From NCBI GenBank assembly GCA_030691725.1, contig JAUYDQ010000064.1, positions 1 through 11,642 of the forward strand: a stretch of DNA of 11,642 nucleotides, given 5' to 3'. The stretch is from Candidatus Omnitrophota bacterium. GTDB lineage: Bacteria > Omnitrophota > Gorgyraeia > Gygaellales > Profunditerraquicolaceae. Of this stretch, positions 1,923-11,642 are shown in pieces; the first letter of the stretch is position 1, and the number at the start of each line of letters is the position of its first letter. The position numbers were made by a program, and so were the translations under genes. The notes under the pieces are model-generated. The model was given only the letters and a program-made list of their open reading frames with translations, was not told where the DNA came from and searched no databases.

Positions 1923-4113
<2,191 letters not shown>

Positions 4114-4120
4114 AAATAAT

Positions 4121-10360: not shown

Positions 10361-10364
10361 TTAT

Positions 10365-10371
10365 GGAGGAG
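10365..10371 (+). promoter_or_regulatory. Shine-Dalgarno site deciding the cooS start
   Basis: GGAGGAG just before ATG 10375. An in-frame ATG at 10363 overlaps the site and would add only MEEK, so 10375 is preferred. Confidence 0.65.
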
Positions 10372-10374
10372 AAG

Positions 10375-11642
10375 ATGTCCGATATTGAAAAAAAATCTAT
10401 AGACTTAGCCACGCAGGAAGTCTTGAAAAAAGCTAAAGACGAAAATATAAAGACTGCCTGGGATAGATTGGAATCGCAAGAACCTCAATGCGGGTTCGGA
10501 CAACTTGGTTTATGTTGCACTGTCTGTAATATGGGTCCTTGCAGAATTGACCCTTTTGGCGAAGGGGCAAAGGAAGGTGTCTGCGGCGCAAATGCAGATA
10601 CAATTACAGCAAGAAATTTAGCCCGTAAAATAGCAGTGGGAGCCTCTGCACATTCTGACCACGGCAGGGATGTGGCGCATACTTTGTCTTCATTATCCGA
10701 AGGCCATGCCCATGACTATGAAATCTTGGATATTGAGAAACTAAAAACGCTGGCAGAGGAATTCGGTATTGATACTAACAAGCCAGCGGGCAGTGGTTTG
10801 GCTTCCGATAGCCAAAGCCACAAGCCAGCGGGCAGTGGTTTGGCTTCCGATAGCCAAAGCCACAAGACAAAAGAACAAATAGCCAAAGATTTGAGTAAAA
10901 AACTTTTAGAAGAATTCGGGAAACAGGAGGGAGAGCTTGTATTTTCTAAACGAGCACCTAAAAAACGGCAGGCTATTTGGAAGAAATTGGGTATTACGCC
11001 CCGCGGCATAGATAGAGAAGTAGTAGAGTTATTGCACACCACGACCATGGGCGTAGATAACGATTATAAAAATATCATTACTACAGGTATGCGCTGTAGC
11101 CTTTCCGATGGCTGGGGCGGCTCGATGATTGCGACAGATGTGCAGGATATTATTTTAGGTAGTCCTGTTCCCATAAGAGGTAAAGTTAATTTAGGTGTGT
11201 TAAAGGAAAATTACGTAAATATTGTGGTGCATGGACATGAGCCGGTTTTATCCGAGATGGCAGTAAAAGCCAGTAAAGACCCGGAATTGATAAAATTAGC
11301 GAAAGCCAAAGGAGCGGAGGGCATAAATTTAGCGGGAATCTGTTGCACTGCCAACGAAGTATTGATGCGCCATGGTATTGCCGTAGCAGGGAATTTCTTA
11401 CAACAGGAACTGGCAATTATTACGGGTGCGGTGGAAGTGATGATGGTGGATGTGCAATGTATTATGCCGGCGCTACAGGAAGTGGCTGCCTGTTTTCACA
11501 CTAAACTTATTACCACCAGTCCCAAGGCGCGTTTTCCGGGAGTTACCCACATTGAGTTTGAGTCAAAAAAGGCTTATGAAGTAGCCAAGCAGATTATTAA
11601 ATTGGGTATTGAGAATTTCTCTAATAGGAATAAAGAAAGGGT
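10375..11642 (+). CDS. cooS: Carbon monoxide dehydrogenase catalytic subunit, 3' end beyond the window
   Basis: Ni-Fe-S enzyme interconverting CO2 and CO; in the Wood-Ljungdahl pathway it feeds CO to acetyl-CoA synthase (then called acsA). The visible 422 codons are about two thirds of a usual chain. N-terminal cysteines C39 and C47 (D-cluster) and C48, C51, C56, C70 (B-cluster) fall at the same numbers I recall for Carboxydothermus CODH-II. C-cluster ligands in VHGHEPVLSE (285-294), GICCTANE (321-328) and VDVQCIMP (359-366) follow, shifted by about 27-29 residues. The shift matches a 28-residue in-frame tandem insertion (KPAGSGLASDSQSH twice, 136-163). ATG 10375 follows GGAGGAG; metF ends 14 bases upstream. 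The remaining cluster ligands lie outside the window. Confidence 0.96.
   Translation, partial: MSDIEKKSIDLATQEVLKKAKDENIKTAWDRLESQEPQCGFGQLGLCCTVCNMGPCRIDPFGEGAKEGVCGANADTITARNLARKIAVGASAHSDHGRDVAHTLSSLSEGHAHDYEILDIEKLKTLAEEFGIDTNKPAGSGLASDSQSHKPAGSGLASDSQSHKTKEQIAKDLSKKLLEEFGKQEGELVFSKRAPKKRQAIWKKLGITPRGIDREVVELLHTTTMGVDNDYKNIITTGMRCSLSDGWGGSMIATDVQDIILGSPVPIRGKVNLGVLKENYVNIVVHGHEPVLSEMAVKASKDPELIKLAKAKGAEGINLAGICCTANEVLMRHGIAVAGNFLQQELAIITGAVEVMMVDVQCIMPALQEVAACFHTKLITTSPKARFPGVTHIEFESKKAYEVAKQIIKLGIENFSNRNKER
10778..10866 (+). repeat. Perfect tandem duplication of a 42-base palindromic unit inside cooS
   Basis: Copies at 10778-10819 and 10820-10861 are identical, and ACAAG begins a third copy at 10862-10866. 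Each unit holds a hairpin: GTGG plus TTTGGCT, loop TCCGAT, AGCCAAA, one bulged G, then CCAC (10793-10821 and 10835-10863). The length is a multiple of three and the reading frame stays open, adding KPAGSGLASDSQSH twice. Removing both copies joins DTNK to TKEQIA, which reads like an uninterrupted CODH. Confidence 0.95.

Follow-up and report, generated by a model that had tools for sequence, protein, structure and literature searches.

A probable 42-nucleotide protein-coding palindromic element of Omnitrophota, present as a tandem pair within cooS

The carbon monoxide dehydrogenase (CODH) gene cooS at the end of the window (the whole analysed stretch of 11,642 nt from an Omnitrophota genome) very probably carries a protein-coding palindromic element of this phylum, a non-autonomous, dispersed unit of 42 nt that would have been inserted in frame and then doubled. 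The insert of 84 bases consists of two 42-nt units with 100% identity and is directly followed by a third ACAAG, giving the pattern (ACAAG + 37-nt core) x2 + ACAAG (Table 1). The listed open reading frame stays open across it. In the minimum-energy fold, each unit forms one hairpin of 11 bp with a single bulge; the fold of the insert has a z of -6.3, with none of 200 dinucleotide shuffles equally stable. The earlier observation of a duplicated, in-frame palindromic insert in cooS, made of two identical 42-base units with 11-bp hairpins, is confirmed. Its interpretation as a palindromic element inserted in frame is supported by comparison with related sequences. The insert lies far above chance: a second contig of this genome bears the 37-base core again, its stem changed in a compensated manner.

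Table 1. Position of cooS and of the element features in the window
Feature	Position	Strand	Remarks
cooS, anaerobic CO dehydrogenase catalytic subunit	10363..11642	+	426 codons present; ends at contig end
Element copy 1 (ACAAG + 37-nt core)	10778..10819	+	42 nt; covariance model 76.2 bits
Left-flank base C of copy 1, column 2	10779	+	covaries with interior column 16 (G, 10793)
Hairpin 1, copy 1 (GCC-AGCG-GGC)	10782..10791	+	C-G/T-A/G-C pair exchange among copies
Hairpin 2, copy 1 (TGGTTTGGC / GCCAAA-G-CCA, loop TTCCGATA)	10794..10820	+	fold, covariation
Element copy 2	10820..10861	+	42 nt, same as copy 1; covariance model 76.2 bits
Hairpin 1, copy 2	10824..10833	+	sequence identical to copy 1
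Hairpin 2, copy 2	10836..10862	+	sequence identical to copy 1
ACAAG past the last copy	10862..10866	+	empty sites: AACAAG in G258, AATAAG in own contig C44

Empty and filled sites in cooS and other genes

The cooS product matches the Prismane/CODH family PF03063 (E 8e-114) and scores 427 bits against TIGR01702, under the cut-off of 478 because the contig end shortens the gene. In a PDB search it matches the CODH 6t7j; chain residues 142 and 143 are adjacent in this alignment, query residues 140-166 (27) are unmatched, and CODHs of solved structure run uninterrupted across the insert site. An AlphaFold2 model of the two-copy CODH is too poor for use (mean pLDDT 55.6, pTM 0.34), and the insert region has no predicted secondary structure in it. 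Upstream of cooS lie a match to formate-THF ligase and, below the respective cut-offs, a partial cyclohydrolase match and matches to FolD and MTHFR-type models. The source genome is a fragmented MAG of 143 contigs (774 kb, 83% complete). The same assembly (G000) holds a second cooS, without the element, on contig C44 (locus L217 628-1812); it is 92.2% identical to the window gene over 395 residues and would be either a paralogue or the copy of a second strain in the MAG.

At the insert site, 26 of the 28 readable distinct cooS genes are empty, one copy being present in G003 and two in the window. These genes come from a survey in which 27 of 59 related genomes matched and 30 loci were fetched; one further locus ended too early to be read. 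At the place where the window has gatactaacaag-84 nt-acaaaagaa, the sequence of the empty G258 gene is gatacaaacaag-actaaagaa. The ACAAG past the last copy is read here as probable host sequence of the insertion site, because the closest empty sites have a lysine codon there. The segment is not shared by all related CODHs, most relatives being empty. Nor is the core confined to cooS: other places in this genome and in related ones also have it, for the most part in frame within unrelated protein genes.

Among public relatives of cooS (the best 120 of 8000 scored), 110 have no copy, nine have one and one has two. The allele P0007, with no copy, is 97.5% identical to the window gene over 398 aligned residues; it is without exactly the 28 insert residues and has DTNKTKEQIAKD at this place, so that the restoration of DTNKTKEQIA by excision, as originally predicted, is realized in a natural allele. 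P0002 has one copy (96.8% identical) and P0001 has two. P0001 is 97.2% identical over 422 residues and is therefore distinct from the window's own sequence. These alleles show, at the level of sequence, that the cooS copy number varies between 0, 1 and 2 within very close relatives (96.8-97.5% identity).

Empty sites are shorter by 14 aa per copy in cooS, enolase and aspartate-semialdehyde dehydrogenase (ASADH). For enolase, 40 matches were obtained, 30 of them with loci; G004 is the carrier, and all 29 other fetched loci are shorter by exactly 14 residues, three of the empty ones sharing the genus of the carrier. In ASADH the carriers are three genomes, each from a different genus. The site can be read in 29 further loci, and all 29 are empty; locus L267 of G020 is left out of this count because its contig starts at the site, inside an apparent copy tail. 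Ribosomal protein bL25 is empty in the own genome and filled in G200 and G222, and the element-bearing ketol-acid reductoisomerase (KARI) has 14 residues more than its PDB relative 5e4r. At L267 1-15, the contig with the C-terminal part of ASADH starts within the apparent element end; because of this, the element may break assemblies and hence be under-counted in MAGs.

Stem covariation, flanks and distribution

The consensus of 29 copies (A1) is ACAAG CCAGAGGGC AGTGG TTTGGC TTCCGATA GCCAAA G CCA, in which hairpin 1 is formed by GCC and GGC and hairpin 2 by TGGTTTGGC and GCCAAA(G)CCA. The first search put no constraint on columns 24 and 35, and yet they pair in all 29 copies, 21 times as G-C and 8 times as C-G. 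Among 146 unique 47-mers, column pair 6/13 is CG in 132, TA in 8 and GC in 2, pair 22/37 is TA in 135, CG in 9 and GC in 1, and pair 24/35 is GC in 119 and CG in 24. G-T occurs in 0-4 sequences per listed column pair, except at 16/44 (21). The stem exchanges in these 146 copies (C-G/T-A, T-A/C-G, G-C/C-G) are nearly all Watson-Crick and few G-U pairs are seen, which favours a DNA palindrome over an RNA stem; the pair counts are also shaped by protein-level constraint and shared descent. The paired percentage in the larger set is biased because the covariance model rewards pairing, and the 29-copy result for columns 24/35 is unaffected. A sub-family with the stem GTGCGGC/GCCGCA (L041 1772, L057 1550, L071 1555 and L047 12), encoding the peptide KPEGDGAASDSRSH and variants, appears to be the main stem, doubly compensated.

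The left flank is YAAG-like in most copies. Column 2, in this flank, and the interior column 16 are C-G in 80 and T-A in 52 of 144 unique copies and have the highest mutual information among all column pairs; column 16 also shows a tendency to match the first host base behind the insert (97 of 144). Since column 2 covaries with column 16, the left AYAAG behaves as if it belonged to the element or were a target selected via pairing, and ACAAG on both sides is by itself no proof of a target-site duplication. Identical 5-nt flanks are found in 24 of the 146 unique copies (shuffled mean 10.5, maximum 22), a mild excess that could also come from both flanks pairing with column 16. In enolase and ASADH, the right flank matches the empty site more than the left does; in bL25 of G200, the left flank matches exactly the empty site in the genome of the window and the right flank differs. 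The ASADH flanks differ in two of the three carriers, and enolase is compatible with a 4-nt duplication. The original observation that ACAAG precedes each copy and follows the last holds, and the reading of this motif as a target duplication is not established by these mixed flank data.

The covariance model, trained on 29 copies and used within Omnitrophota only, finds 14 copies in the genome of the window. On its contig C140 the 37-base core is found again with three changes, and two of these exchange the partners of a stem pair (GGC..GCC to GCC..GGC); this copy is read in the same frame, close to the N-terminal end of a BamA/POTRA protein. A degenerate core pattern is present in 11 of 40 related genomes, and the same pattern reversed as a control in none of the 40. 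Across the phylum, at E <= 1e-4, the model detects the element in 77 of 384 genomes (among those of good quality, in 55 of 249), with a patchy distribution over 45 of 283 genera. Because this search scored about 16 candidates in each genome, the per-genome counts are lower bounds. An exact-pattern scan of one genome per species (84,980 species) gives four records, all from Omnitrophota; the pattern is narrow, and the element may have relatives outside the phylum. No match is found in viral contigs with three exact patterns, in plasmids and phages with a 131-base query at E <= 1e-5, or in Rfam at the insert site up to E = 1.

For closer inspection, 168 distinct copies were used, mostly top-scoring matches rather than a random sample; they include 80 fetched places that the phylum search gave without a locus, and places already present under another locus number were dropped before counting. 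Second tandem copies, the window's own among them, are under-counted in this set, since cmsearch drops the overlapping neighbour of a tandem pair. Several insertions are common to different genera or families, namely those in an electron transfer flavoprotein (ETF)-alpha/ferredoxin protein (five genomes), ASADH (three) and an MMPL-family protein (three), so that a part of the distribution reflects descent or transfer and not recent movement, and the 168 copies do not count as independent events. In the ETF-alpha/ferredoxin protein, the element lies at the same place in L072, L078, L099, L129 and L179 with one or more units of differing sequence, which suggests an old insertion site under continuing change. 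The shared MMPL site (L086, L161 and L188, from three families) would reflect descent, gene transfer or a hot spot. In G172, the 47-base copies of five loci (L134-L138) are identical and also share their flanks (GCAAG...CACACC), which looks as though they were embedded in a longer dispersed repeat.

Reading frame and host proteins

The element encodes a 14-residue peptide, found as variants of KPxGxGLxSxxQSH; copy 1 gives K-PAGSGLASDSQS-H in the cooS frame. Copies were classed by the longest ORF in which they lie, with a minimum of 120 aa. On this basis 97 of the 168 copies lie in sense frame 0, 13 in frame +1, one in +2 and 16 in antisense, while 41 are in a short or no ORF. The frame-0 copies belong to 86 proteins in 66 homologous clusters. 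In the own genome, 13 of the 14 copies were classed, the fourteenth being the second cooS unit: seven are in sense frame 0, four in antisense and two in no long ORF. Their frame-0 hosts are cooS, BamA, the ETF-alpha/ferredoxin protein (two copies; named after its cluster-mate L072), a Cons_hypoth95 methyltransferase, a T2SSE ATPase and a PPDK_N enzyme.

A Pfam scan of 30 of the 86 host proteins assigns a family to 29. Most are enzymes and some are membrane proteins; among the families are enolase, ketol-acid reductoisomerase, glutamate synthase, leucyl-tRNA synthetase, UvrD helicase, ribosomal protein L25, guanylate kinase, a CheA-type kinase and apolipoprotein N-acyltransferase. In the guanylate kinase of G304 (L175 1899-2579), the element lies near the N-terminus; gmk of Rickettsia is described, in excerpts of the source, as the host of an experimentally studied palindromic insert (PMC2229807).

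The preferred frame exceeds what the target motif offers. In 159,627 nt of ORFs from 80 of the copy-bearing loci, the end of RYAAG coincides with a codon boundary in 33% of all cases and in 62% of the sense ones. Frame 0 is taken by 97 of 127 long-ORF copies against the 33% (p 2e-23), by 97 of 111 sense copies against the 62% (p 4e-9) and, in a conservative count by host clusters, by 66 of 96 (p 1e-12). Antisense copies (16 of 127) are fewer than RYAAG would give (47%). Target availability explains the frame bias in part, and the bias beyond the motif is best explained by selection against other readings. Indels are seen in two of the 97 frame-0 copies, both multiples of 3, compared with 10 of the 41 copies in a short or no ORF, nine of which are not multiples of 3 (Fisher p 9e-5). 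Since indels are nearly absent from in-frame copies, we infer that these are translated. Among the 30 of 127 long-ORF copies in another frame or in antisense, four have indels, three of them multiples of 3, so that those frames may also be coding.

Alternative readings, known elements and possible mode of movement

A local tandem duplication of cooS sequence by slippage, with no mobile element, would account for two perfect 42-nt units side by side, and with P0002 and G003 each having a single unit there, the second may well have been added by slippage. As a whole explanation it is very improbable: 26 of 28 related cooS genes have no unit at all, and dozens of unrelated genes and genomes do contain it. 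Slippage is refuted as the origin of the unit and is kept as a candidate for its doubling. An equally small probability is given to an artefact of assembly or binning, by which the second unit or the whole insert would stem from misassembly or mixed strains. The MAG is fragmented (143 contigs, 83% complete), its contig C44 bears a second, empty cooS, and assemblies can break at the element, as in the ASADH contig of G020. This worry is reduced because P0001, a separate sequence, likewise has two units, and tandem units also occur in several other genomes (G034, G039 and G172).

That the unit serves in mRNAs as a structural or regulatory RNA module, such as a hairpin for processing or attenuation, is a little less remote than these and still very unlikely. 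The hairpins are stable (z -6.3) and conserved by covariation, but the hosts are unrelated, orthologues exist without the element, Rfam gives no match up to E = 1 at the site, and the Watson-Crick exchanges with few G-U pairs fit a DNA palindrome better. Translational bypass, in which the ribosome hops a hairpin insert within a conserved gene as described in excerpts on Magnusiomyces mitochondrial genes (PMC6649704), has an almost negligible probability, since it needs neither the fixed frame, nor the multiple-of-3 length, nor the scarcity of indels, all of which are seen. A classical REP tagged with GTAG/CGTC, mobilized by a RAYT and intragenic by chance, deserves more weight and is nonetheless improbable. 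Size, hairpin dimensions and intragenic copies are alike, intragenic REPs are on record in excerpts of PMC3733652 for Rickettsia conorii and Opitutus terrae ('O. terrae', read as Opitutus), and Y1 transposase genes (PF01797, a model that does not separate RAYTs from other Y1 transposases) are common here, in 95 of 117 genomes. Against it, the consensus of 29 copies is without GTAG/CGTC, with GTAG anywhere in seven and CGTC in two of the 168 copies; only 41 of 168 copies lie outside long ORFs, REPs being described as mostly intergenic; and the presence of the element is not associated with Y1 genes.

Among the sources used here, the best-studied protein-coding palindromes are those of Rickettsia (PMC2229807, PMC3767692); in excerpts of these sources, Rickettsia palindromic elements (RPEs) are 100-150 bp long, lie in frame in conserved genes and also occur in Wolbachia. 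The Omnitrophota element is likewise a dispersed palindromic repeat found in frame in unrelated, often conserved genes and also outside genes, with hosts that in both cases include aminoacyl-tRNA synthetases, DNA helicases and guanylate kinase. It has many palindromic copies per genome (14 here, with covarying stems) and keeps the frame on insertion (97 of 168 in sense frame 0, 66 host clusters). Unlike the RPEs, it measures 42 nt (14 aa), resides in Omnitrophota rather than Rickettsia or Wolbachia, and has two short hairpins, an exact 42-nt tandem register and a natural 0/1/2 polymorphism at one site. Compared by description, the originally proposed resemblance to RPEs stands for behaviour and fails for length and phylum.

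Other small repeats share some of these traits, as far as excerpts of the sources describe them. REP/RAYT repeats belong to the same 20-40 bp class of dispersed, sometimes intragenic palindromes (PMC3733652), but the Omnitrophota element is without GTAG/CGTC at one end, is not predominantly intergenic (41 of 168 copies in a short or no ORF) and has one preferred frame. PARCEL is a palindromic coding repeat with tandem arrays and presence or absence between relatives, consisting of amphipathic domain repeats of variable sequence mainly in membrane proteins (PMC2996958), whereas the present peptide is short, well conserved, polar as judged from sequence and found in many unrelated proteins, mostly enzymes. 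Coding MITEs (ERIC/RU-1, YPAL/RU-2, Correia/NEMIS) are also small non-autonomous repeats with open frames fused to genes; they measure about 100-200 bp, usually have terminal inverted repeats and lie mainly between genes (PMC2229807). The Omnitrophota element differs from them in its 42 nt, its mostly intragenic position and its unproven target-site duplication. It is filed here, from its sequence features, among the protein-coding palindromic elements, as a variant in another phylum. In the open-access literature on Omnitrophota repeats and protein-coding palindromes, as far as titles and abstracts show, no description of it is found. The element extends the RPE-like kind to a much shorter form in 45 of 283 sampled genera of an uncultured phylum. 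It sits in enzymes of structurally solved families (CODH, KARI), and its natural 0/1/2-copy alleles make the effect of a coding palindrome on its host protein, and its mode of movement, testable. Protein sequences from Omnitrophota can contain an element-derived insertion of 14 aa.

For the preferred reading, a mobile protein-coding palindrome, the following course is proposed. Copies would spread as hairpin-forming DNA, landing beside AYAA-like sequence, and most insertions in other frames or strands would be lost. The surviving frame would give a short, polar, flexible peptide (K, P, G, S, D, Q) that the host protein could accommodate as an additional loop, its 14-codon length and open frame making it harmless enough to persist. 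The palindrome would be maintained because structured copies keep moving or because selection acts on the DNA structure, and not for the benefit of any single host. In cooS, insertion would have taken place at a lysine codon, with subsequent tandem doubling via slippage or via re-insertion at the AYAAG-like end of an existing copy.

Insertion by IS200/IS605 elements is single-stranded and guided by hairpins. A speculative extension, which we regard as doubtful, is that the element has an internal base-pairing guide of this type, column 16 selecting the left-flank base, so that a unit of 14 codons would insert at an AYAA-type target in an IS200/IS605-like manner. If so, few protein-coding mobile elements would be smaller, and proteomes in many lineages of this one phylum would be receiving a standard flexible loop from it.

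A Y1 transposase as the mobilizer gains no support from gene presence: in the 78 genomes covered by both searches, such a gene is found in 50 of the 58 that have the element and in 18 of the 20 that do not (p = 1). The single Y1 gene of the own genome lies on contig C60, which has no element copy.

Elsewhere in the window, imperfect 7-nt repeat arrays with apparent inverted pairs (AGTTATA/TAACTCA; AGTAACT/TTACTAG) are found at 753-831 and 4004-4114. One is located at the start of a SpoIID-like ORF and the other between tgt and trmD, and they are possibly another small palindromic repeat type of this genome.
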